A DNA stretch of 64,000 nt from Balamuthia mandrillaris. Lineage: Eukaryota; Discosea; Longamoebia; Balamuthiidae. The number at the start of each line of letters is the position of its first letter. Within the stretch, counting starts at the first letter, position 1. Under the pieces are notes generated by a model that was not told where the DNA came from, ran no database searches, and saw only the letters and a program-made list of their open reading frames with translations. Both the position numbers and the translations under genes were made by a program. The DNA lies in NCBI GenBank assembly GCA_031835245.1, contig JAVKOQ010000056.1, forward strand, positions 176,001 through 240,000. Direction: 5' to 3'. Shown one piece after another: positions 37,518-57,171 of the stretch.

Positions 37518-38763
37518 ATGGAAGAGCCCGCCGCCGCAGACGAGAGAGAGGAGGAAAGCCCAGCCCTTCCCGCCCTTCTCCAACCCTTTGCGCGCTCCAC
37601 CACCTGCGACCTCTCTCTCCAAGGTTTGACCTCCTTGCCGAGCGCGGTCGGCCGCCTCCGCGCTCTCACCGCCTGCCACCTCTCCCACAACGCGCTGAGC
37701 GCCTTGCCCAGGGAGTTTGGCCAGCTCACCGCTCTCACCCTCTGCGACCTCTCCTTTAACGCGCTGAGCGCCTTGCCCAGGGAGTTTGGCCAGCTCACCG
37801 CTCTCGCCAAGTGCAACCTCTCCTCCAACAAGCTGACCTGCTTGCCCAGGGAGTTTGGCCAGCTCCGCGCGCTCGCCGAGTGCAACCTCCGCAACAACGA
37901 GCTGGCCGCCTTGCCGAGGGAGTTTGGCCGCCTCACCGCTCTCACCCACTGCAACCTCTCCAACAACAAACTGACGGCCTTGCCGAGGGAGTTTGGCCAG
38001 CTCGGGGCTCTCAGATACTGCCACCTCCCCAACAACCTGCTGACCGCCTTGCCGAGGGAGTTTGGCCGCCTCACCGCCCTCAGGCGTTTCGTCCTGGATG
38101 GTAACCCCTTGGCGGCGCTGCCTTCTTCCATCCTTGAAAGCGCTCTTCCCTCAACCCTTTCACCAGCAAGACGCGCTTCACGAACAAGCGGAAGGGAACG
38201 ACGAAGGGCAGGAGGAGAAGCAGCAGAAGAAAAGAGTGAAAGCCAACCAATTATCGCCCAGGAGGAACCACCACGCAGCGGTGAAAAGTTTGTGGCACTT
38301 GAGCGGAGAGGCGGTGCTGAGGAACGAGCTTTTGCCAACTGGCCTGTTGGCCCCCATTCCATACCCGCCCTTCGCCTGGCTTTCTTCTTGTTCTTCTTCT
38401 GCTTCTCTAATGGAGAGGACCACACACCAACAAGGAACAAAAGAAGAACCGAGAGAAGAAGGAGAAGGGGGTGCGGTGGTGCTGCCGGAAGAAGTGAAGG
38501 AAAGGCTGGAACAGCTGCAGAGAAGATGCGATGTTTGTGCACAGCTGTTTTTAGAGGCAGAAGAGGAGGAAGACGGAGGACCCCCAAGGCAAATCTTGAG
38601 AAGGTTTTGGGACCAGCAACGCAGAGTTTGGTGGGAGTTGTTGTGTTGCAGCCAGAGCTGCCGCCACCGGCCCCTCACTGACTTGGTGGACATCAGCTTA
38701 ATGTTCACCTATCAGTGCAATGGGAAGAGAGAAAAAGAATTGCAGGGTACTCGTCATGCTTAA
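37518..38763 (+). CDS. Leucine-rich repeat protein, frame broken before C-terminal domain
   Basis: ATG 37518 (MEEPAAADEREEESPALP) is followed by about eight LRRs of 23 residues, nearly identical at the DNA level (69-bp period): units of the type LTALTLCDLSFNALSALPRE and FGQLTALAKCNLSSNKLTCL. The last is FVLDGNPLAALPSSIL at about 38090-38137. After about 38140 this frame becomes Arg-rich and unlike protein, whereas the frame one base on carries a plausible LRR-family C-terminus: AVKSLWHLSGEAVLRNELLP then PYPPFAWLSS, a C-D-V-C pair in RRCDVCAQLFLEAEEEE, and WWELLCCSQSC, ending at 38763. Similar double-Cys ends are found in many short LRR proteins. Either an indel (real or sequencing) or a weak intron with donor GTCCTG (about 38093) and acceptor CACCAG (about 38167) joins them. 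Function unknown, probably protein binding. Confidence 0.7.
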
Positions 38764-42138: not shown

Positions 42139-42296
42139 CTTCTTGTTTTTTGCTTTCTCTGTTTTTTTTGGGGTCATATCCATGTCGACGCGAGTTGTCG
42201 ACAACTGAGATCCCAACAGATTATCTTAATTGTCGACATGTTACATTAATCATACCAGCCAATAAAAAATCAAACAATGTATTCATATTATAATAT
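42139..42296. promoter_or_regulatory. Divergent promoter with three GTCGAC palindromes
   Basis: This 158-bp spacer between prefoldin 3 and the Cys-rich gene holds TGTCGAC at 42183-42189, a perfect 12-bp palindrome GTTGTCGACAAC at 42194-42205 and TGTCGACA at 42231-42238. Three copies in 60 bp is the densest cluster of this motif in the window. Confidence 0.6.
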
Positions 42297-42845
42297 TTGC
42301 TCTTGCTGTCGGTGGTTACGCTAGTGGTGGGTCTGGTCCAACCTGCGGGAGCATTCGCCGTTAACGGCACCCAGTGCAAGGGCGACCTGTGCTGCTACCT
42401 GCCGAACGGCGGGGTTCAAGCCGGCGATCTCTTCAACGGCTGCTGCTACGGGCGAGACGGCTCCGTGGCTGCCGGAGGCAAATACAATGGATGTTTCTAC
42501 AGCAGCGCCGGCTCTGTCGCCGCTGGAGAGCAGTACAATGGCTGCTGCTACGGCAGGGATGGCAGCACACAGGCCGGAGGCAGATACAACAGCTGCTGCT
42601 ACGGCAGTAATGGCTCCGTTTCTGCTGGGAACCTCTTTAACGCCTGCTGCTATGGTCGTGACGGCTCCGTGGATGCGGGCGGGCTGACCAGGTCATGTTG
42701 CTACGGAAGGGATGGGTCGGTCTCAGCCGGTGGGCAGTGCAACCTATGTTGCTTTGGTTCGCGCGCGGCCAAGCACAGCTGCAGTGAAGGCGGCCTGCAC
42801 CATGGTTGCTGCAGTGGATCCGGCACTACTTGTTGTGGCAAATAA
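42297..42845 (+). CDS. Secreted Cys/Gly-rich repeat protein, start codon not found
   Basis: The frame opens directly with a hydrophobic, signal-peptide-like stretch (LLLSVVTLVVGLVQPAGAFA), then six to seven repeats of about 17 residues (51 bp) with the pattern N-G-C-C-Y-G-R-D-G-S-V-A-A-G-G-x-Y, each with a vicinal Cys pair. It ends GSGTTCCGK. No family is recognised. Disulfide-rich, secreted extracellular protein is the best description; nothing in it shows toxicity. An in-frame TAA lies at 42291-42293 and no in-frame ATG occurs between it and the signal sequence. The nearest ATG (42277) is in another frame. So the 5' end is disrupted, mis-sequenced, or uses a non-AUG start. The 3' end is 127 bp from the convergent 3' end of the giant fibre gene. 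Confidence 0.6.
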   Translation: MLLLSVVTLVVGLVQPAGAFAVNGTQCKGDLCCYLPNGGVQAGDLFNGCCYGRDGSVAAGGKYNGCFYSSAGSVAAGEQYNGCCYGRDGSTQAGGRYNSCCYGSNGSVSAGNLFNACCYGRDGSVDAGGLTRSCCYGRDGSVSAGGQCNLCCFGSRAAKHSCSEGGLHHGCCSGSGTTCCGK

Positions 42846-42972: not shown

Positions 42973-45900
42973 TCAAGAGGATGACTTCAAGAAGGCTTCC
43001 CTCATTTCCATCATCTGCTGTTGCAGCAGCACCAACTGCTCATTCATCGCTTTTAACTCTTGTACTTCTCTCTCCAGTTTCTCCACTTTTTCCTTCAGCT
43101 CTGTTACCTCATCTCCTTGTTCTTCTTCGCCTCTTCTTCTGAACGTACTTCCACCCACGTAAAGGTCTCCCTCCACATAAACATCTCCATCGCGAGTGAC
43201 CAACAAGCCATTGCTGTTGGCACTGCATCCTGTCAAACTCACCGTGCCCGTTCCTACGGAGAAGATGGCGTCCAGTGTAGCGGCCGTCGCCGCGTCGTTG
43301 CACCATCCAAAGACGGCTTCCGCGTCCAGAGAGGTTTTCACGTTGATGCCATGCGCGAAGGAGCCTTCTCCAGTGGCGCGCACCACCGCTCCTGAACCGC
43401 GGGCTGTTTATTTTCATTATGAATGTTTAGAAAAAAGAGAGAGTTTGCGTTTGTGGATTTTGTTAAGCACGTACCCACACCGGATGCATGTGAGCCAACA
43501 GAGAGAGCTTCTACGAAGCCGCCATTGTAGGCTTTTTGGTTTTGTTGTTTGAGTGGAGGAATGAAAATAGAGAAACGAGAGGAGTGAGGCTTACCATAAC
43601 CAGCAGCGTGAGCTCCCTTCTCATCTGCTCTAATATATCCACCAGATTCAACTAAAGGTTTTTTTGTTTGAAAAGTATAGATAAAGTTTTGTTAAAAACC
43701 TCTGAGAAGAGAAAGAAACAAAAATATGATCATCTGACTTACCACATCCAGAAGATGATGCCCCGTAATTCTCTGCTATAACGTATCCAGACCCGTCAGC
43801 TATCAGCGAAATAGCAACATAAAAGAGGATACAGAGGAACAAAAAGTTAGTATGAAGAAACAGCCAGAAAGACAGGAAGAGATCAGTCTCTCAAGCAGAC
43901 CGTAGCCTGTAGCACGCGCTCCAGCTGCTGTGGCTTCAATATGACCACCCGATAGCGCTGTAGGTAACAACAAGAACAAGAACAAGAACAAGAACAAGAA
44001 CAAGAACAAGAACAAGAACAAGAACAAGAACAAGAACAAGAACAAGAACAAGAACAAGAACAAGAACAAGAACATAAGACAATAAAAGCAAGAGAATTAG
44101 GTATAACCCAAAGACATAAATTGTTTGTTTGTATCCGCAAACCGCACCGTAGCCTGATGCATAGGCTCCCTCAGCATTGGCTTTTATAGTTGCACTTCCG
44201 ACTGAAATAACAACAGAAAACAAGGAGTGGTTAAAACTGAGTAGGTTTGTTGATAAAGAGCCAACATACCAGCACCCGAGGCTTGGGCTCCATAATGCTG
44301 GGCCGAGATAATTCCCAAGGTAGCTAAGCAGATAAGAAAATATCAAGCAAGTCGGTGTAAGCCTCTTCTTGTTTTTTGTGTTCAACAAGACGTACCATAG
44401 CCCTGCGCAGAGGAACCGTCATGCGTGGCTTCAACAGTTGAGGTAAATTCAGCTTTAACAAAAGGAATATATATTAGGTCAGTCTGTGCCAACACACCAC
44501 TTTAAAAAAAACAAGAATTAAAAAAAGTCAACCGTATCCTCTAGCAAAGGCACCCTTGCCGCTGGCAGTGATTGTGGTGCCAGAACCAGATGCTTAAGAG
44601 GGGAGTGGCAGGGAAGCCGAGTATGAAAAGGAGAAGTAAGAATAAGAATGATAAGAAAAAACAATAAATCGAAACTGTGGGAGGATAGATCGCCACTTAC
44701 ACCACCCGGAAGCGTGTGCGCCATCTCCACTTGCGTAGATACTTCCAGAATTAACTGTTTATCACATTTGGGTGAAAGAGAGAGAGAAAAGAGAAGATAG
44801 AGTGAATGGGAATGTAAAGGAAAAAGAAAAGTGAAAATCAACCATAGCCATTTGCAAAGGAACCATGTGCTGCAGCCGTGGTGCCCAAGCCAAACGCAGC
44901 AGAATAGTCTCCAATGTTGGCCTCGTTCCATTGGGTGCCAGTGGCCTTGCCCGCACGAAACGCACCACGACTGCCATACCACAGCAACCGCACACCAGCA
45001 CCCGTCACAGTGGCTCCGCCGCCAGACAAGCCATCAAAGTTGGTGTTGGCCAAATTCTCGGTGGAGCTGATGACCATGGACCCGCTGGAGGAACGGTAGA
45101 TGCTGCTCCCTGTCTCCGTCCAGACCCCGCTCTTCCACTGGGTGCCACCCACGTAGAGTGCTGTCTTGACGTGAAGGGCTCCGGTCTTGGTGAGCAATAG
45201 CCCGTTGCTTTCGGAGGTGCAGTCGTAGGCGGCATCAAGGTTACCGATGCCCACGGAGAAGATGGCGTTGAGAGAATCAGCCTCGGTGCGGTCGTTGCAC
45301 AGGCCAAAGACGGCCTCGCCGTCGTTGCTGGCCTCCACATTGATGCCATGAGCAAACGATGCATCTCCGCTGGCTACTATCTGGGAGGTGAGACCAATTG
45401 CTGTTTGTTTTGTATTGGGTATAATATAACAACAACACCAACAAGAGAAATGAGATAAGTGTTAGTGTTCACGGAACCAAGGTGCTTTTTTCTAGCGAAT
45501 GACTTACCTATGCCAGATGCATGGGATGCGTTTCCAGTTGCCATTATTGAGCCAAAGTCCCCAGCTGTTTATAGAAAGAATTGTCAACACTAGGGCGTGC
45601 CTTAGAGAAACATGCAAGAACGAGAGAAAGAGTAGAATGTGGCATACTTTCGCCATAGGCATAGGACGCAGAAGAAGTAGCTGATATCGAAGAACTCTGA
45701 GCCGCTTTTGCATAAAACAAGTAGTAGTCCGGATAAATAGCTGGTCATTTACAATAAAAACAACAACCAAAGAAAAGAAGAAAAGCATTACCACAACCGC
45801 CTGCAAAAGACGACTGGCCAGAGGCTTCAATGGCGGAGTTATCAGCGACTAAATGGTCATGCATAGAGAAGAATTAGAACAACCCACCACCATTTATCGT

Positions 45901-48900
45901 TTACCGCAATCGCACACATACCATAACCTGATGCTCGTGCTGATTCACCGCTTGCCACAATCTGTCCGTTGTCCACTACAAGCCAAATGGTAAGCAAAAA
46001 AGCCATGGCACCCAACCAGAATTGGAAAGGAGTACCATAGCCAGAAGCAAAAGAGCCGCGTGCTTTAGCGGTGGTGCCCTGTCCAAAGGCCGCTGAGACG
46101 TAACCCAGCGCCTCCTCATTCCACTCGTGGTCCAGGGCCTTGCCCGCACGAAACGCTCCTCTGCTACCATACCACAATAACCTCACGCCCCTACCCACAG
46201 CGCCAAGGTAGGTCGACAGCTCATCGATATTCGTGTTGGTCAGGTCCTCTGTGCCGTTGATGAGGAGGGAACCACCGGAGCGATACACACTGGGCCCTTC
46301 CTCTAGCCAAGCGCCTGACAGTCTGGCCCCTCGAGAGTAGATGTCTCCCTCCACATGGACATCACCGAGGTTGGTTACCAGCAAGCCGTTACGAAAGTTG
46401 TTGCAGCTGTAGGTGCCGGAAATGGTGTTCAAGGTGCCCGAACCGACCGAGAAGATAGCATTTAGAGAGTCGGCTTCTGAACGGTCATTGCAGATACCAA
46501 AGACGGCCTCCCCGTCGTTGCTAGCATGGATGTTGATGCCATGAGCAAAGGATGCCACTCCACTAGAGAGAACACCCGAGGATACGCCATTTGCTGATCG
46601 TCGTTATCCGAAAGATGAGATAGGCAAAGGTAAACAAACGAAAAAGGGAACTTGTGAAATAAAGAACTTGCTGCTTACCATAGCCACTCGCAATGGAAGC
46701 ACTGCCGCTGGCCGTGATGGTTCCACTGACGGTGACTTAAAAAGTGTCAGTGAAAAAGATATCACAATAAAACATGGGCAAGTAGCAAGCATCGGGAGGA
46801 TTTCCTGGGAGGTACTCACCATAACCAGAGGCCTGAGCTCCAAGACTACTTGCTGTGATGCTGCCACTTCCCACTGTAATGCAAAAGAAAAAACGATAAA
46901 CAGAAGCAAAAACAAAACAAAAACAAAACAAAACAAAACCCAACCATATCCACTTGCAAAGGAGCCATGCCCGCTGGCTATGGTGCCCAAGCCAAACGCA
47001 GCAGAATAGTCTCCAATGCTGGCCTCGTTCCATTGGGTGCCAGTGACTTTGCCCGCACGAAACGCACCACGACTGCCATACCACAACAACCGCACACCAG
47101 CACCCGTCACAGTGGCTCCGCCGCCAGACAAGCCATCAAAGTTGGTGTTGGCCAAATTCTCGGTGGAGCTGATGACCATGGACCCGCTGGAGGAACGGTA
47201 GATGCTGCTCCCTGTCTCCGTCCAGGCTCCGCTCTTCCATTGGGTACCTCCCACGTAGAGCCCTGTCCTAACGTATAAATTTCCTGTTTGAGTAAGCAGC
47301 AGTCCATTGTTCTTGGCGGTACAGGCATTGCTGCTCAACGTGCCAGTGCCCACGGAGAAGATGGCGTTGAGAGAGTTGGCCTCGGTGCGGTCGTTGCACA
47401 GGCCAAAGACGGCCTCGCCCGTGTTGCTGGCCTCCACATTGATGCCGTGAGCAAACGATGCATCTCCGCTGGAGAGTACGTTTGAGGTTGCACCAATAGC
47501 TTTGTATTTTGGTTTAGCTTTAATGAAACAATATGATACAAGTGAAAAGTGAGAGTGAAAAAATGACAAACCAACACCAGATGCATATGCCGCTAAGCCA
47601 CTTGCTTCAATGCTACCCGCAGTATTAGCTGATATGATTTGTTAACGGGTCGTGTCAGTTCTTCGCATCTTTGTTGTTGCACATTGTATGAGTACGTACT
47701 ATATCCAGAGGCATGAGCTCCATTAGCAGTGGCTTTGATGTCGGATCCTCCAATAGCTATAGTTGTTTGCAGCGGTGCAAAAGGTGTGAGCAATTAAAAA
47801 TAAAAGATGAATGCAGAAAGAACCAAGTAACAAGAAGAACGAATAAATAACTCACCGTAGCCGCTTGCAGCGGAACCATCTGAGCTGGCTCTGATTTCAG
47901 AGCTGCCGCTGACTGAATTCAAGAAAGAGGCACAAGAATGAAAAGAGGAATACTGGTGAGTACATGAAGGAGACAAGACTGGAATGCAGTGGCGTCCAAA
48001 AAACTGAAATATTTTTGGGCATACCGTATCCAGAAACTGCAGACCCAAGGCCATCTGCTCTGAGAGTACCGCTGGCGACTATAAGCAGAGCATCACAAGG
48101 CACAAAAAAGTCGGTCAGCAAAACGCCAGTTCGGAATAGCACGCGCACCATACGCACCATATCCAGTGGCAAAGGAACCATGCCCATTGGCAGTGGCACC
48201 CAAGCCAAACGCAGCAGAATAGTCTCCAATTGTAGCTTCGTTCCATTCTGTGCCGATGGCCTTGCCCGCACGAAATGCACCACGACTGCCATACCACAAC
48301 AACCGCACACCAGCACCCGTCACAGTGGCTCCGCCGCCAGACAAGCCATCAAAGTTGGTGTTGGCCAAATTCTCGGTGGAGCTGATGACCATGGACCCGC
48401 TGGAGGAACGGTAGATGCTGCTCCCTGTCTCCGTCCAGACCCCGCTCTTCCACTGGGTGCCGCCCACGTAGAGCCCTGTCCTAACGTATAAATTTCCTGT
48501 TTGAGTAAGCAGCAGTCCGTTGCTTTCGGAGGTGCAAGCGTAGCTGCTCAACGCTCCAGTGCCCACGGAGAAGATGGCGTTGAGAGAGTCAGCTTCCGTG
48601 CGGTCGTTGCACACACCAAAGACGGCCTCGCCCGTGTTGCTGGCCTCCACGTTGACGCCGTGAGCAAACGATGCCGGGCCGGAGGCTATAACAGTTGATG
48701 TTGAACCATCAGCTGTGTTGATTTCAAGATAAAAAGCATTTAAGTCATCATAGCCACAGAAAACGTTCAGAGGAACGGCGGTCCAGACCTATGCCCGATG
48801 CATGAGCTGCATAGTCGTTAGCTTCAATAAGGCCTCCATTGTTCGCTATTGATGAAAAAAGAATTATTATTTCTTGGTGATGACAAATACGTGATATGTA

Positions 48901-51900
48901 TATCAATGTAGTTTTACCTTGACCAAAAGCAAAAGCGCCACTGGCGGTGGCTTTGATATCTGAATCTCCAGCAGCTTGTGTGTATGTTGTTTTTTTGTAG
49001 TATGTTAACACGTGGCTTCATGGCGAATACACATAGAGCGTACCATTGCCGCCAGCGTATGAACCGTCCCCGCTGGCCCTTATCTCTGAACTTCCCAGGA
49101 CTGAAAAAAGAAACAGTGCAAATGAGCCAATACAGACGGAGAGAAGAAGAAGAAGAAGAAGAAGAAGAAGAAGAAGAACAAGAAGAAGAAGAATGAAAGT
49201 AGCCATTATGGAGGCAACGCACCGTAGCCAGAGACTACAGCCGCGATTCCGCTTGCTCTGATGATACCGCTACCCACTTGTGCACGATAGGGTGAGCAAG
49301 AGCCGTCAGTGAATGCAAGAACGTTCATAATAAACAGAAATGAAAACAAAGAAAGAAATACTGCGTACCATAGCCCGTTGCGAAGGAACCCTGTCCACTT
49401 GCACCGACCCCCAAGCCAAAAGCAGCGGAATAATCTCCAATGACCACTTCATTCCATTGGGTGTTGGTGGCCTTGCCTGCACGGAATGCCCCACGACTGC
49501 CATACCACACCAGCCTCACTCCCGCTCCCTCCACCGTGGCCCCACTGCCCGACAGCCCATCAAAGTTGGTGTTGGAGAGATCCTCCACAGAGTTGATGAC
49601 CAGAGAACCGCTGGCCGTGCGGAACAAGCTGCTGCCTTCCTCCCTCCATGTGGCTGCCTTGTTGCCCTCCACATACAACCCGTTGATCACATGCACATCT
49701 CCTGTTTGTGTGACCACCAGGGCATTGTTCTGCGTGGTGCAGTCATAGCTGTTCAACGTGCCGGTGCCCACGGAGAAGATGGCGCCCAAGGAATCGGCCT
49801 CTGCACGGTCATTGCACACACCGAACACGGCCTCTGCGGTGTTGCTGGCCTCCACATTGATGCCATGGGCAAAGGATGCTTGTCCACTTGCCACAACACT
49901 GGATGTGGCTCCGTCAGCTGTTGTGCCGTTGCACAAACAACAACGAGATGGCAAAAGCATGAGAGAACAAAAACAAACAAACAAATAGGAGAAAGGGTGA
50001 TGACTGACCAACGCCCGAGGCTTGTGATCCCCAGTTGCTTGCCTCAATGGTTCCTCCATTGTTCGCTGGCACACAGACAGAAAGAGTCAATGCAAACGAA
50101 AATGAAACGTTTAAAGTTGTACGCACTCTGGCCAAAAGCAAACGCTCCGCGCGCACTCGCTCTGATCAACGAGCCTCCAGCAGCTTGGCAGTGCATGAAG
50201 AAAGAGGGTTGTCAGTTGCAATGAAAGGAGGGCTAAACAATTGCACCAATACAAGTGGTGGACAGCGGGAGGCAGCGTACCATAGCCTCTCGCAAAAGCT
50301 CCATCCACTGTTGCCCTGATGGTTGAACTGCCCAGAACTGGAAGAAGAACAAATAAAGCAAGAAATGAACAGATACAGAAATAAATGAGAGAAAGAAAGA
50401 GAAAAGAAAGAGAGAGAGAGAAGAGATCAGCGCACCATAACCAAATACTTGAGAGCCAATGCCGTCTGCTCTGATGATCCCACTCCCAACTGTGACAAAG
50501 AGCACAACACACCATTCCGTGTTAGAATGCCCCACAAAGAGCCCATGACAAAAATAAACAAATAAACAAAACAAACAACAAAAAACAAACAAGCAAATAA
50601 TAGAATATACAAAGAACAAGAATACAGACCATAACCACTGGCAAAGGAACCAGCACCAGCAGCCACGCCTCCCAAGCCAAAAGCAGTGGAATAATCTCCA
50701 ATGGCAGCTTCGTTCCATTGGGTGTTGGTGGCCTTGCCTGCACGGAATGCCCCACGACTGCCATACCACACCAGCCTCACTCCTGCTCCCTCCACCGTGG
50801 CCCCACTGCCTGACAGCCCATCAAAGTTGGTGTTGGAGAGATCCTCCACGGAATTGATGACCAGAGAACCGCTGGCCGTGCGGAACAAGCTGCTGCCTTC
50901 CTCCCTCCATGTGGCTGCCTTGTTGCCCTCCACATACAACCCGTTGATCACATGCACATCTCCCGTTTGTGTGACCACCAGGGCATTGTTCTGCGTGGTG
51001 CAGTCATAGCTGCTGTTCAGGGCACCAGTGCCCACGGAGAAGATGGCGCCCAAGGAGTCCGCCTCCGTGCGATCGTTGCACACACCGAACACGGCCTCTG
51101 CGGTGTTGCTGGCCTCCAGGTTGATGCCGTGAGCAAAGGATGCTTGCCCACTTGCCACAACACTGGATGTGGCTCCGTCGGCTGTTGTGCCGTTGCGTGA
51201 ACAACAAAAAGATGGAAAAACATATGAGAGTGAGCAAAAGCAAACAACATGGAATATGACAGGAGAAAGGGTGATGACTGACCAACGCCAGAGGCTTGTG
51301 ATCCCCAATTGCTTGCCTCAATGGTGCCTCCATTGTTCGCTGGCACACAGACGTGAAGCAAAACAGAGAATCGATATGGTGCAAACATCACATGAGAGAA
51401 AAGCAAAATTAGCATTGTGTTTCCTAAGCTCTTGGTTTCTTTTGTTGTACGCACTCTGGCCAAAAGCAAACGCTCCGCGCGCACTCGCCCTGATCAACGA
51501 GCCTCCAGCAGCTTGGCAGTGCATGAAGAAAGAGGTTTGTCAGTCGCAATGAAGGGAGAGCTACACAGTGCACCAATACAAGTGGTGAGTAGCAGCGTAC
51601 CATAGCCTCGTGCAAAAGCACCATCCACTGTGGCTCTGATGGTTGAACTGCCCAGAACTGGAAGAAGAACAAATAAAGCAAGAAATGAACAAACAGATAA
51701 AGAAACAACATGAGAGAAAGAAAAAGAGAGAGAGAGAGAGAGAAGAGATCAGCGCACCATAACCAAATACTTGAGAGCCAATGCCGTCCGCTCTGATGAT
51801 TCCACTCCCAACTGTGACAAAGGGCACAACAAACCATTCCGTGTTAGAGTGGTCCACAAAGAGGCCTTGACGATAAAACACGAAAACAAATAAAAACACA

Positions 51901-54900
51901 AAAACGAGCAGGAATACAGACCATAACCACTGGCAAAGGAACCAGCACCAGCAGCCACGCCTCCCAAGCCAAAAGCAGTGGAATAATCTCCAATGGCAGC
52001 TTCGTTCCATTGGGTGTTGGTGGCCTTGCCTGCACGGAATGCCCCACGACTGCCATACCACACCAGCCTCACTCCCGCTCCCTCCACTGTGGCCCCACTG
52101 CCCGACAGCCCATCAAAGTTGGTGTTGGAGAGATCCTCCACAGAGTTGATGACCAGAGAACCGCTGGCCGTGCGGAACAAGCTGCTGCCTTCCTCCCTCC
52201 ATGTGGCTGCCTTGTTGCCCTCCACATACAACCCGTTGATCACATGCACATCTCCCGTTTGTGTGACCACCAGGGCATTGTTTTGCGTGGTGCAGTCATA
52301 GCTGCTCAACGTGCCGGTGCCCACGGAGAAGATGGCGCCCAAGGAATCGGCCTCTGCACGGTCGTTGCACACACCGAACACGGCTTCTGCGGTGTTGCTG
52401 GCCTCCAGGTTGATGCCGTGAGCAAAGGATGCTTGCCCACTTGCCACAACACTGGACGTGGCCCCATCAGCTGTTGTACAGTTGCACAAACGAGTTAACA
52501 CAATGAACAACAAAATAGAATGTGGGTAAAAGGATGGTAACTGACCAACGCCAGAGGCTTGTGATCCCCAGTTGCTTGCCTCAATGGTGCCTCCATTGTT
52601 CGCTGGATAAAGAATCAATGCCATAGGAGAAATAAGATACTCTGCAAATATATTTCTTGCTCTCTTCGTTGGTCATACGTACTCTGGCCGTAGGCAAAAG
52701 CGCCCCGAGCACTCGCTCTGATCAACGAGCCTCCAGCAGCTTGTGAATAAAGAGACTATGTCAGAAACACACGTAGAAATAAACAAATGTAGCAAACTAA
52801 GCGTACCATAGCCTCTTGCAAAAGCTCCATCCACTGTGGCCCTGATGGTTGAGCTGCCCAGAACTGGCGGTACATAAAAAAAAAATGAAGAACAAGAACG
52901 AAGAAAGGTTAGATACAAAGCTCACACAATCTTGAGGCGTCCCTTTGCACGCACCATATCCAAATACTTGAGAGCCAATGCCGTCTGCTCTGATGATCCC
53001 ACTCCCAACTGCGACAAAGGGCATAAAACAACATTCCACAACAGAAAGTTTAGAAAAGAGATAGTGACAAACTAACAAATAAAACAGCAAGAATACAAAC
53101 CATAACCACTGGCAAAGGAACCAGCACCAGCAGCCACGCCTCCCAAGCCAAATGCAGCGGAATAATCCCCAATGGCAGCTTCGTTCCATTGGGTGTTGGT
53201 GGCCTTGCCTGCACGGAATGCCCCACGACTGCCATACCACACCAGCCTCACTCCTGCTCCCTCCACTGTGGCCCCACTGCCTGACAGCCCATCAAAGTTG
53301 GTGTTGGAGAGATCCTCCACGGAATTGATGACCAGAGAACCGCTGGCCGTGCGGAACAAGCTGCTGCCTTCCTCCCTCCATGTGGCTGCCTTGTTGCCCT
53401 CCACATACAACCCGTTGATCACATGCACATCTCCCGTTTGTGTGACCACCAGGGCATTGTTCTGCGTGGTGCAGTCATAGCTGCTGTTCAAGGCACCAGT
53501 GCCCACGGAGAAGATGGCGCCCAAGGAGTCCGCCTCCGTGCGATCGTTGCACACACCGAACACGGCCTCTGCGGTGTTGCTGGCCTCCACATTGATGCCA
53601 TGGGCAAAGGATGCTTGCCCACTTGCCACAACACTGGATGTGGCTCCGTCGGCTGTTGTGCCGTTGCACAAACAACAAAAAGATGGAAAATAAAAAAAAA
53701 ATGAGAGAACAAAAACGAACAAACAAACAGGAGAAAGAATGATGACTGACCAACGCCAGAGGCTTGTGATCCCCAATTGCTTGCCTCAATGGTTCCTCCA
53801 TTGTTTGCTGGCACACAACAGACAGAAAGAGGAATGTAAACGAAAGCAAGAAATAAGATTATTTGTACCAACCCAACATAGATTGAAGTTTTACGTACTC
53901 TGGCCAAAAGCAAACGCTCCGCGCGCACTCGCCCTGATCAATGATCCTCCAGCAGCTTGAAAGGTGAATGACGAAAGTCAGCAACATAACGGAGGAAAAT
54001 GTACGGCATGCAACAACAAAATTCATAAGTTAACAATGGAGGCCGCGTACCATAACCTCTCGCAAATGCACCATCCACTGTGGCTCTGATGTTGGAGCTA
54101 CCAAGGACTAACACCAGGCAAGGAGCAAAAAAACCACAAACAAGAGAGGAGTCAGGCACAAAAGTCATGTGAACATCGTGGGACGGTTTGCACGCACCAT
54201 ATCCAAATACTTGAGAGCCAATGCCGTCCGCTCTGATGATCCCACTCCCGACTGTGACAAAGAGCACAACACACCATTCCGTGTTAGAATGCCCCACAAA
54301 GAGCCCATGACAAAAATAAACAAATAAACAAAACAAACAACAAAAAACAAACAAGCAAATAATAGAATATACAAAGAACAAGAATACAGACCATAACCAC
54401 TGGCAAAGGAACCAGCACCAGCAGCCACGCCTCCCAAGCCAAATGCGGTGGAATAATCCCCAATGGCAGCTTCGTTCCATTGGGTGTTGGTGGCCTTGCC
54501 TGCACGGAATGCCCCACGACTGCCATACCACACCAGCCTCACTCCTGCTCCCTCCACCGTGGCCCCACTGCCTGACAGCCCATCAAAGTTGGTGTTGGAG
54601 AGATCCTCCACAGAGTTGATGACCAGAGAACCGCTGGCCGTGCGGAACAAGCTGCTGCCTTCCTCCCTCCATGTGGCTGCCTTGTTGCCCTCCACATACA
54701 ACCCGTTGATCACATGCACATCTCCCGTTTGTGTGACCACCAGCCCGTTTCTCTCCAATGTGCAATCATAGCTGCTGTTCAACGTGCCGGTGCCCACGGA
54801 GAAGATGGCGCCCAGCGTGTTGGCCTCCGCGCGGTCGTTGCACAGGCCAAAGACGGCCTCGCCGTCGTTGCTGGCCTCCAGGTTGATGCCGTGAGCAAAG

Positions 54901-56343
54901 GAGGCCTCTCCACTGGCTATCACACCGGATGAGCTGCCGCTTGCAAGGCCAGAGGCGTGGGCGGCCAAGTTGCTAGCCACAATAGTGCCACCGTCATCAG
55001 CTGGCCGGTGGGGTCCAAGAAGAAGCGAAGCTGGTGAGACACAAAGTGGAAAGGAGAGAGAGAGCAGGAGCAGAGAGAGAGAGCAGGAGAGAGAGAGAGA
55101 GAGAGAGAGAAGATGAAGATTGAAGCAGAGCGACAAACCATAGCCGCCCGCAAAAGAACTGTCGCCACTGGCAATGAGGCTTGAGCTACCACCAGCTGCA
55201 AGTAAGGGTGTAAGTGATAACTTCCAACTGTTGGGAGAGGGGGGGGGGGCCGCCCCCCCCCCGGGTGCTGGTCACCACCTCCCTCACGACGGAAGAGGGA
55301 CAGAGACACTCACCATAACCAGAGGCTTGCGCTGCAGTGCCGCTTGCCGTTATGCTTCCGCTGTTCACTGCAGAAGAGGAAAAGTGCTACCGGTCAGAAC
55401 AAAGGGCATTACACCAGGCACAACATGAAGGTGACGACTTCATCTTCTTCTCTCCTTTGCCTCTCCATTCGTTCTTTAATAATTGAAAGCGAAGAGGAAT
55501 GAAGCGGAGGAATAAAGAATAAGAAGCACAAGACGACGATGAAGAAGAACAAGAACAAGACGTCGCACAAACCGTATCCATTGGCAAAGGAGCCCTGTCC
55601 GCTGGCCGTAGGCCCCAAGCCGAACGCCGCGGACCACTCCCCAATGTTGGCCTCGTCCCACTGCGCGGCGGTGGCCTTGCCCGCGCGCAACGCCCCCCGG
55701 CTGCCGTACCACAGCAGCCTCACGCCAGCGCCCTCCACCACGGCGCTGCTGTTGGCGCCCAGCAGCCCATCAAAGTCGCTGTTGGCGAGGTCCTCCGGGG
55801 AGTTGATCACCAGGGAGCCGCTGGCGGTGCGATAGAGGCTGTTGGGCGCGGCTTTGGTCCAGGTGGCCGCCTGCTGGCCCTGCACGTAGACCTCCGCCAC
55901 GAAGAGGGCGTGGGGCACGTGGACGTCCCCCGTTTGGCTGACCACCAGGCCGTTGCCGCTGGTGTCGCAGGAGAGGGTGGCCGGGTTGAAGGCCCCCACC
56001 CCCACGGAGAAGAGGGCCTGGAGGCTGTCCCCCTCGGAGCGGTTGTTGCAGAGGCCCAGGACGGTCTCGCCCGTTCGGGTGGCCTCCAGGTTGATGCCGT
56101 GGGCAAAGGCTCCATCCCCGCTGGCGATGACGGCAACGCCGCTGCCTTTGGCTGTTGTTGTTTGGTTAAAACTAGCCAAGAGGAGGAGTGCTCAAGGAAG
56201 GAAGCTGTGGGGGAGAAGGACACAACTACGCACCCCAACCAGAGGCAACAGCACCGGCTCCCTCAGCTCTTATTTCACCGCCGTCGTCCGCTGTGGAATA
56301 GCAACACCAACCATTAGGCCATCCCAACAAAACAAAGGAGAGA

Positions 56344-56397
<54 letters not shown>

Positions 56398-56922
56398 CAG
56401 AGACAGAGAGAGAGAGAGAGCAGACAGAGAGAGACAGAGAGAGAGAGAGAGACAGAGAGGGAGATGAGAAGAGATGAGAGAAGAATGACAGACGGGCAAA
56501 GAGATAGCGAGACGAGGAACGGAGAAACAGAGCAAAAAGCGGAGAAGAGAAGCAACGCAAGTCCTACCCCAGCCGGTTGCAGTGGCCCCGGCTCCGCTGG
56601 CCGTTATGGCACCCGTGCCAGCTGTTTAAAGTGGGCGAAAAGTTGGCGGGTTAGCAACGACGACGCTAGCGAATGAAAGGAGAAGGCTGCTAAACAACTT
56701 ACCATAGCCGTTGGCTTGAGCTCCTTGGCCTTCCGCAGAAACTGTTCCGCTGTCAGCTGCATTTAAGCCATAATGTTGGTTCTTTTCTTTCACATACAGA
56801 AGGTGTGTCATGGAAGAACATACCATAACCGGACGCACGTGACCCTTTTTCACTTGCTGCGATCTCTCCATCCGAGCTTGACACTTTTGCAAACACACGC
56901 AAGGTAAGTAAGAATGACTGAG

Positions 56923-56982
<60 letters not shown>

Positions 56983-57171
56983 GATAGGACAGAGAGAGAG
57001 AGAGAGAGAACGCTTACCATAACCAATAGCGTACGCTCCGTTGCAGTCGGCTTTGATGAACTCAGTGGCTGTCATTTTGGCTGCAGAGGCACATTGTTGT
57101 CCAAGCCCTTCAGCGCCCCCACAGCACCAAAGCATCACCGCACAAATCACCGCGAACAATCCTGCCCTCAT
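42973..57171 (-). CDS. Giant secreted modular fibre protein with YadA-head/tail-fibre-like repeats
   Basis: By my reading about 57 exons encode about 2,900 residues. ATG 57171 begins a signal peptide (MRAGLFAVICAVMLWCCGGA). About 45 small exons (51-60 nt) each encode one repeat such as VGSGIIRADGIGSQVFGYG or LGSSTIRATVDGAFARGYG, the G-x-x-x-A-x-G pattern of YadA-type beta-roll heads. Ten large exons (about 555-610 nt) encode SFAHGINVEASN, EAVFGLCNDRTEADSLNAIF, SVGTGTL, NGLLVTQTGDVHV, a W-x-E-E-G-S-S-L-F-R segment, LVINSVEDLSNTNFDGLSGS, GVRLVWYGSRGAFRAGKA, NTQWNEAAIGDYSAAFGLG and GSFASGYG. Every intron is phase 1 and follows the first base of a Gly codon, so exons can be lost or gained without frame change. 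The last exon (43403-42973) has a truncated large module and a coiled coil (VTELKEKVEKLEREVQELKA) ending FLKSSS. No TM anchor is seen. The modules resemble bacterial/phage fibre proteins; an extracellular trimeric fibre or cyst-wall/adhesion role is inferred. Confidence 0.8.
43404..45400 (-). repeat. Higher-order unit 9 and small-exon run of the fibre gene
   Basis: One large exon (45400 to about 44845) followed by nine small exons with no large exon between them, up to the terminal exon. One intron contains a (CAAGAA)n array at about 43967-44070. Confidence 0.75.
43967..44072. repeat. (AACAAG)n hexanucleotide array in intron
   Basis: About 17 uninterrupted AAGAAC/CAAGAA hexamers inside an intron of the fibre gene. 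Confidence 0.9.
45401..46593 (-). repeat. Higher-order unit 8 of the fibre gene
   Basis: A divergent large exon (GDIYSRGARLSGAWLEEGPS, GRGVRLLWYGSRGAF) followed by four small exons, one of which (about 45745-45650) is atypical, with Tyr-rich IYPDYYLFYAK before the repeat. Confidence 0.75.
46594..47499 (-). repeat. Higher-order unit 7 of the fibre gene (shortened)
   Basis: Large exon of the second subtype with only two small exons behind it (SGSITASSLGAQASGYG and SGTITASGSASIASGYG), as if two or three small modules had been lost. Confidence 0.8.
47500..48712 (-). repeat. Higher-order unit 6 of the fibre gene
   Basis: Large exon of the second subtype (TQWKSGVWTETGSSIYRSSS, STENLANTNFDGLSGGG) plus four small exons, including SSEIRASSDGSAASGYG and AGSIEASGLAAYASGVG. 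Confidence 0.8.
48713..49917 (-). repeat. Higher-order unit 5 of the fibre gene
   Basis: Large exon of the unit 1-4 type, but its four small exons have diverged (SGIIRASGIAAVVSGYG, SSEIRASGDGSYAGGNG, DSDIKATASGAFAFGQG, NGGLIEANDYAAHASGIG). An intron carries a (GAA)n run at about 49141-49192. Confidence 0.8.
49918..51181 (-). repeat. Higher-order unit 4 of the fibre gene
   Basis: Same five-exon order. The intron at about 50545-50628 is almost identical to that of unit 1 (about 54305-54390), 3.8 kb away. Confidence 0.85.
51182..52470 (-). repeat. Higher-order unit 3 of the fibre gene
   Basis: Same five-exon order. Exons and parts of introns (for example the GGAAGAAGAACAAATAAAGC stretch at 51661) are shared with unit 4. 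Confidence 0.85.
52471..53652 (-). repeat. Higher-order unit 2 of the fibre gene
   Basis: Same five-exon order as unit 1, with nearly identical large exon (one indel at the NSSYDC/NSYDC position). Confidence 0.85.
53653..55000 (-). repeat. Higher-order unit 1 of the fibre gene
   Basis: One large exon (55000 to about 54392) and four small exons (repeats SGIIRADGIGSQVFGYG, SSNIRATVDGAFARGYG, GGSLIRASARGAFAFGQ and GGTIEASNWGSQASGVG types). This five-exon block recurs along the gene. Confidence 0.85.
55001..56151 (-). repeat. Higher-order unit 0 of the fibre gene (N-terminal, GC-rich)
   Basis: The first large exon (56151-55572) is the most GC-rich and most divergent (GETVLGLCNNRSEGDSLQAL, EVYVQGQQAATWTKAAPNSL), followed by two small exons and an intron with an 11-G/10-C palindrome at 55239-55262. 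Confidence 0.8.
56341..56462. repeat. (GA)n/(GACAGA)n tract in intron
   Basis: AG-rich run on the plus strand, CT-rich in the sense of the fibre gene, within an early intron. A second one lies at about 56927-57012. Confidence 0.9.

Follow-up and report, generated by a model that had tools for sequence, protein, structure and literature searches.

The window examined here, 64,000 nucleotides of Balamuthia mandrillaris contig JAVKOQ010000056.1 (positions 176,001 to 240,000 of assembly GCA_031835245.1), carries on its minus strand, from 57171 to 42973, a single gene of 57 exons whose spliced product, 2,909 residues long, is a giant relative of the head and tail-fibre proteins of prokaryotes. Exon placement relied on GT and AG sites, on a frame kept open in phase 1 and on the pattern of the repeats. 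Each of the 56 introns is GT-AG and lies in phase 1, the 55 internal exons are without exception divisible by three, and intron length runs from 60 to 277 nucleotides, with a median of 90.5. These regularities are partly built in: the exon search accepted phase-1 GT-AG exons alone, and for this reason the independent check of the model is its agreement with that of NCBI. In a whole-protein search with 7,985 candidates scored, the sole match was 'hypothetical protein QOT17_007556 [Balamuthia mandrillaris]' (2,919 residues), 100% identical to the spliced product and differing from it at one point, the acceptor of exon 9, where the NCBI exon starts ten residues earlier. The article on the published ITSON01 assembly (65.2 Mb, 841 scaffolds) describes gene prediction with Funannotate, RNA-seq reads being part of the input (PMC10471605), and the NCBI model presumably stems from that annotation; the genome searched here comprises 64.8 Mb in 775 contigs. 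An earlier note, written from the letters alone, had reported an intron-rich eukaryotic gene with a signal-peptide-like start at this place, and the parts it named are indeed there.

Along the protein, the signal-peptide-like start gives way to 45 single-exon repeats interleaved with ten long modules, each composed of two blocks, A and B, separated by a linker, and the chain closes with a last A block and a heptad helix. On the minus strand throughout, exon 1 (57018..57171) supplies the start codon, the signal-peptide-like N-terminus (hydropathy 2.81 over 11 residues) and a first repeat-like end (..DCNGAYAIGY). Four single-exon repeats follow (exons 2-5, 56234..56883), then module 1 in exon 6 (55573..56151), two repeats (exons 7-8, 55139..55367) and exon 9 (54392..55000), where a further repeat is fused to module 2 and which was used for structure model m0005d6147150. 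From there on sets of four repeats precede each module with some regularity: exons 10-13 (53751..54251) and module 3 in exon 14 (53101..53652), exons 15-18 (52546..53008) and module 4 in exon 19 (51922..52470), exons 20-23 (51283..51811) and module 5 in exon 24 (50630..51181), exons 25-28 (50009..50489) and module 6 in exon 29 (49369..49917), exons 30-33 (48789..49276) and module 7 in exon 34 (48158..48712), exons 35-38 (47572..48078) and module 8 in exon 39 (46945..47499). Two repeats (exons 40-41, 46679..46873) stand before module 9 in exon 42 (46036..46593), four (exons 43-46, 45508..45975) before module 10 in exon 47 (44843..45400), and nine (exons 48-56, 43475..44754) before exon 57 (42973..43403), which holds a truncated module reduced to its A block, a helix-like tail of 44 residues (42976-43107) and the stop. 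The single-repeat exons preceding each long exon are accordingly 4, 2, 4, 4, 4, 4, 4, 4, 2, 4 and 9 in number.

Most of the single-repeat exons (29 of 45) contribute 19 residues, 14 contribute 18 and two contribute 20. The earlier note had counted about 45 repeats of 19 residues with G-x-x-x-A-S-G-Y-G spacing; the number holds, the length varies from 18 to 20, and the final G of the motif is absent from the protein because an intron splits its codon (G|GT...), which after splicing mostly reads Ala or Val ('ASGYA', 'ASGYV'). At a score of 18, a profile of the repeat exons found none on the plus strand and none outside the gene on either strand of the window; as it was trained on the window's repeats, its matches within the gene are there by construction, while for prokaryotic proteins the training set is independent. 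The modules of about 185 residues and the terminal coiled coil proposed at the outset correspond to ten modules of 183-193 residues and to the heptad helix after the truncated eleventh. Between modules, the ratio of nonsynonymous to synonymous change (dN/dS) could be computed for 43 of 45 pairs and lies at 0.03-0.36, the differences being mostly synonymous. Modules 2-6 sit within direct repeats of great length, the longest reaching 1,873 nucleotides at 86% identity, introns included, and these repeats point to an origin of the five modules in tandem copying. Two cysteines are invariant across the window's eleven A blocks, and each of the ten complete modules carries the motif [WF]-x-G-S-R in its B block.

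In composition the protein is 44% Gly+Ala+Ser and, past its N-terminus, it has no strongly hydrophobic stretch (19-residue maximum 1.36). Its predicted secretion is based on hydropathy, and hydrophobic N-termini were present in the four genes of the family examined. Six terminal helices were scored against shuffled sequences: for four of them the score was reached by 12, 0, 1 and 0 of 500 shuffles, and for the two on contig C27 by 74 and 78 of 500. The pattern [RK]-h-x-x-h-E, which we take to be a trimer motif and to which we give little weight, appears in its K form in the window and on C48 and in its R form on C27; C310 and C550 lack it.

The gene is part of a family. A genome search with one module led to at least 30 places and a search with the last exon to at least 23, the window's own counted. 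Thirteen further loci were retrieved for counting repeat exons, and nine of these have at least 16. The chained exons number 51 on C550, 48 on both C310 and C20, 22 on C511 and on C48 and 21 on C529; C27 has 28, spread over two genes and with the N-terminal exons included, C202 has 20, likewise in two genes, and C85 has 17, one of which appears by eye to be a serine-rich artefact. Two loci at contig ends show one (C113) and two (C98) repeat exons, and C2 and C159 have one and two chained. The opposite strand yielded no chained exon in any of the eight loci checked, where a first, cruder profile had given three unchained matches. C48, C529 and C511 resemble one another and are possibly alleles. 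In L021, L022 and L023 (on C310, C20 and C550), 18-residue repeats alternate, by eye, with a 19- or 20-residue type over much of the array.

When spliced, the paralogue on C48 yields 719 residues, in the order hydrophobic N-terminus, N-domain, B, 22 repeats, A and helix. Among the matches listed for the last exon, 12 places lie off the window's contig, and at 11 of them the match extends into the helix; that on C202 stops at residue 100, short of it. In the window modules, A is joined to B by a linker ('GSLVINSVEDLSNTNFDGL') that is similar to the stretch closing the paralogue N-domain ('GSLLVPASFDNLNNDFDGL' in C310), and because of this resemblance the giant looks, by eye, like basic units of the family fused in line. 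Both A-block cysteines recur in the paralogue A blocks that were aligned. The [WF]-x-G-S-R motif is present in five of seven other genomic B matches, those of C159 and C2 being without it. At L136 and L137 (contigs C2, C159) strongly diverged B-like blocks are accompanied by only one or two repeats, and they are perhaps an older branch of the family.

The relatives of these proteins are to be found in prokaryotes. In each of three protein searches, scoring was limited to the roughly 7,990 candidates that had most words in common with the query. With a 500-residue query, 147 proteins matched at E <= 0.001 (best 5.1e-31), and 99 of the 120 listed bear YadA_head (PF05658) and/or Peptidase_S74 (PF13884). 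Few rows carry the name of an organism (most are nameless); those that do are bacterial, with Balamuthia as the sole eukaryote, in keeping with the impression at first reading that the type is unfamiliar in eukaryotes. A profile built from Balamuthia B blocks alone matched 204 of 559 prokaryotic targets at an independent E-value (iE) <= 1e-5, reaching down to 1.9e-22, and none of the 559 when shuffled; 110 of the 134 proteins are among the matches, the rest being open reading frames of GTDB loci. The corresponding A profile matched 17 targets at <= 0.01 (14 of the 134 proteins), again with none after shuffling, and A follows B in the 13 targets having both. The targets comprise 134 proteins fetched by similarity and 425 open reading frames of loci with a B motif, many of them chance frames, and since they were picked in this way the counts are not frequencies in nature. 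A, linker and B are collinear between exon 9 and eight prokaryotic or metagenome rows of an alignment, all eight lacking the cysteine pair at the A-block columns, and six prokaryotic or metagenome B blocks share 41-61% identity with the B block of C48. None of 203 prokaryotic B blocks has [WF]-x-G-S-R.

The repeat is shared as well. The Balamuthia protein displays an array of G-x-I-x-A-x3-G-[AS]-x-A-x-G repeats at a spacing of 18-21, as do prokaryotic long-repeat fibres, and among the 134 retrieved relatives the 18-21-residue repeat gave 464 profile matches, against 3 in shuffled sequences, with at least five repeats in 27 of them. Profile-profile comparison relates Balamuthia A to prokaryotic A (probability 75%, E 2.5e-5) and the repeats to the 14-residue YadA-like turns (probability 75%, E 2.6e-5). 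In P0125 and P0015, by eye, long repeats are followed by YadA-like turns and then by an A block, both being among the proteins that were found with the combined A profile after serving in part to train it. When GTDB was scanned with the bacterial B motif, 209 of the 248 stretches in genome_contigs were confirmed, and 80 of them were kept (78 distinct loci); judging from record titles, they belong to Bacteroidota, Ignavibacteriota, Acidobacteriota, Bdellovibrionota, Omnitrophota and others. At the level of sequence, this shows B, repeats and A to be homologous to those of prokaryotic YadA-head and tail-fibre proteins, and in the same order. The kinship that the earlier note had proposed is borne out by the homologues, by the collinearity of A, linker and B, by the B profile and by the shared long repeat; it is not directly supported in that Pfam's own YadA_head finds nothing and that the repeat is longer than the YadA turn.

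Indeed YadA_head (PF05658), against which the modules were to be compared, has no match in pieces of the protein, in P0121, in the 719-residue paralogue or in the genome. The Pfam scan of P0121 is also without the C-terminal YadA beta-barrel anchor, the C-terminus being a helix-like tail followed by a stop, and without Peptidase_S74, the S74/ICA part that defines the MYRF family being likewise absent; Peptidase_G2 matched neither the protein nor the Balamuthia genome. Because YadA_head, the anchor, S74 and G2 are unmatched, we place the protein neither among the trimeric autotransporters (type Vc) nor among the S74 tail fibres. What stands where an S74 or G2 chaperone or a beta-barrel anchor would be is a coiled-coil-like helix. 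The sole Peptidase_S74 match of the genome (contig C60:36323-36541, L226) lies in a frame without fibre repeats, by eye, and is possibly a MYRF-type protein. Scans of single modules with Pfam, PHROGs and NCBIfam gave no useful match. PF14532 and PF12257, found by Pfam with the whole protein, were dismissed as repeat-inflated scores in which no single stretch passes alone, and four PHROGs matches were set aside likewise, with no stretch passing by itself.

Structures were compared as well. The model of exon 9 has a mean predicted local distance difference test score (pLDDT) of 70, with residues 21-90 at 76-92. Fold searches with it gave nothing significant, the best-ranked matches including YadA-like and S74 proteins. 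Among solved structures, 4usx and 3laa were ranked first, far below significance. Against BFVD, three matches reached a probability of 0.99-1.00, with E of 0.018-0.20 and 1.6-1.9 A over 64-69 columns: a YadA-like, an S74 and a baseplate protein. The same BFVD search returned a Pithovirus protein, at E 0.14. In the model of the relative P0125, each repeat of the repeat region has two strands (residues 311-480, pLDDT 87-96). An alignment profile of B blocks in which Balamuthia and prokaryotic rows are mixed (A2) found the solved BpaC head 7o23 as its best match (E 8e-5), in a match that is confined to the second, YadA-like half of B and in which no one stretch passes by itself.

Two further features of the window deserve mention. 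On the plus strand, at 42294-42845 and converging on the fibre gene, there is a cysteine-rich open frame with about six CCYGRDGSVxAGG-like repeats of some 20 residues; a Pfam scan of it had no match, and it has relatives on contigs C439, C265 and C194. At 37627-38082 lies a tandem array of 69-base units, by eye leucine-rich-repeat-like.

What might such a protein do? We consider it probable that the family consists of secreted homologues of prokaryotic fibre proteins, forming extracellular fibres that are likely rigid and probably homotrimeric, held together by the C-terminal helix; the function to which we commit ourselves would be that of an extracellular coat or adhesive fibre. The signal peptide would direct the chain into the secretory pathway, and the C-terminal helix would gather the chains, in the role that the chaperone or the beta-barrel has in prokaryotes. 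Each repeat of 18-20 residues may form one turn of a beta-solenoid, with A and B blocks ending and restarting its segments and the cysteine pair perhaps stiffening them. Because each repeat is an exon of its own between phase-1 introns, repeats can be gained or lost without shift of frame, and the giant of the window, with its ten A-B joints, would be a lengthened form of the basic fibre. A solenoid rises by about 0.48 nm per coil; 45-50 coils alone would thus extend over some 20-25 nm, to which the modules would add. The more elaborate scenario, in which a prokaryotic head was turned into eukaryotic secreted trimeric fibres with one coil per exon, length and surface being set by exon count, a coiled coil replacing the chaperone and the giant being made of eleven head units fused, is put forward tentatively, as somewhat short of an even bet.

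Prokaryotic or metagenomic origin of the homologues might suggest that the locus itself is a contaminant, from bacteria, viruses or phages, or that it was transferred recently and is still unprocessed. This is extremely improbable: the 56 GT-AG introns are in frame and shared with the NCBI model, 13 further loci of the family lie in the same 775-contig genome, and [WF]-x-G-S-R is seen in most Balamuthia B blocks and in none of the 203 prokaryotic ones. Contamination was accordingly rejected, as was a pseudogene, in view of the introns, the open frames and dN/dS. The DNA pattern for W-Y-G-S-R found nothing in viral_contigs, and none of 28 stretches matched by module alignment A1 encodes a relative; these empty searches leave a giant-virus origin without support. 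With the bacterial B motif, 7 of 29 stretches in viral contigs were confirmed as loci, as against 209 of 248 in genome_contigs, and of the 81 viral loci to which P0002 and P0122 led, none has three or more long repeats by regular expression. A tree of B blocks (99 rows, 51 columns) does not resolve the donor, its 14 Balamuthia rows requiring two changes, which is compatible with one or more origins. A composition so rich in Gly, Ala and Ser, together with repeat-inflated scores such as those of PF14532 and PF12257, could also be the mark of low-complexity repeats arisen by chance or convergence, with no kinship of YadA type. We regard this as very unlikely, as the B block is not of low complexity and its matches vanish when targets are shuffled, and as the order of A and B is kept.

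Two other readings concern the oligomeric state and the role of the fibre. The chain could be a secreted monomeric beta-solenoid that provides a scaffold at the surface, in the wall or for binding, its terminal helix having some role other than trimerisation. The repeat region of P0125 is predicted to fold well without partner chains and looks like single-chain beta-helices, and the helices of C27 are within the range of shuffles; against this, A block and helix travel together at 11 of the 12 other places, many prokaryotic relatives bear S74, reported as the trimerisation chaperone of phage tailspikes (PMC3742443), and, for an obligate trimer of this sort, a model of one chain alone is described as misleading in the paper on BpaC (PMC9543794). 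A monomer therefore seems unlikely to us, without being far-fetched. The heads of trimeric autotransporter adhesins and tail fibres are binding devices, and the same fold might, by analogy, serve an adhesin directed at prey or host, binding other cells rather than building a coat or wall polymer. Repeat sequences do vary, by eye, between groups of paralogues, as binding surfaces would; yet the regular alternation on C310, C20 and C550 is, again by eye, more akin to a spacer or a wall polymer, which makes this role rather improbable. Secreted, probably trimeric coat or adhesive fibres remain the reading that we prefer.

If it is true, this family would be a class of extracellular fibre new for eukaryotes, as far as the searches of open-access literature show, in which no title or abstract among those listed describes a comparable eukaryotic fibre family. 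It would mean that a prokaryotic fibre scaffold was taken through intron gain and exon-by-exon expansion, and would offer a directly testable case of length control via exon number. Balamuthia causes a brain infection that is described as almost always fatal (PMC10471605). The proteins would become candidate targets for diagnosis or imaging if they were abundant at the surface or in the wall and confined to Balamuthia.

How does this family compare with known systems? Closest are prokaryotic S74 fibres such as P0001 and P0003, which share B, repeats and A in the same order as well as tandem A-linker-B joints, P0001 and P0008 even having the same long repeats. P0001 and P0003 end in the S74 chaperone, whereas the Balamuthia protein ends in a helix and has introns; it is also set apart by the cysteine pair of each A block and by [WF]-x-G-S-R, prokaryotic B blocks being mostly of a Pro-type (172 of 203). 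Relatives of the B block are known in Bacteroidota, Acidobacteriota, Ignavibacteriota and others. The metagenome proteins P0122 and P0002 combine a B block with 27 and 19 long repeats, as in Balamuthia, and differ by Peptidase_G2 (PF11962); P0122, from a metagenome contig of 10.5 kb, is the best match of the 719-residue paralogue (E 1.4e-59), and its G2 end matches the phage pre-neck appendage family phrog_4775. The heads of trimeric autotransporter adhesins (YadA, BpaA, BpaC) have turns of 14 residues, given as the canonical YadA-type length (PMC9543794), in contrast with the 18-20 residues of the Balamuthia protein, which matches neither the anchor nor PF05658. Among eukaryotes, the nearest precedent found for tailspike parts is MYRF, where, according to PMC3742443, the trimerisation part of tailspikes (ICA) is reused. 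MYRF took the chaperone; the Balamuthia family took the head blocks and repeats without it, and we rate it as an offshoot of prokaryotic fibre proteins, eukaryotic and rich in introns, that stands outside both the trimeric-autotransporter and the S74 families.

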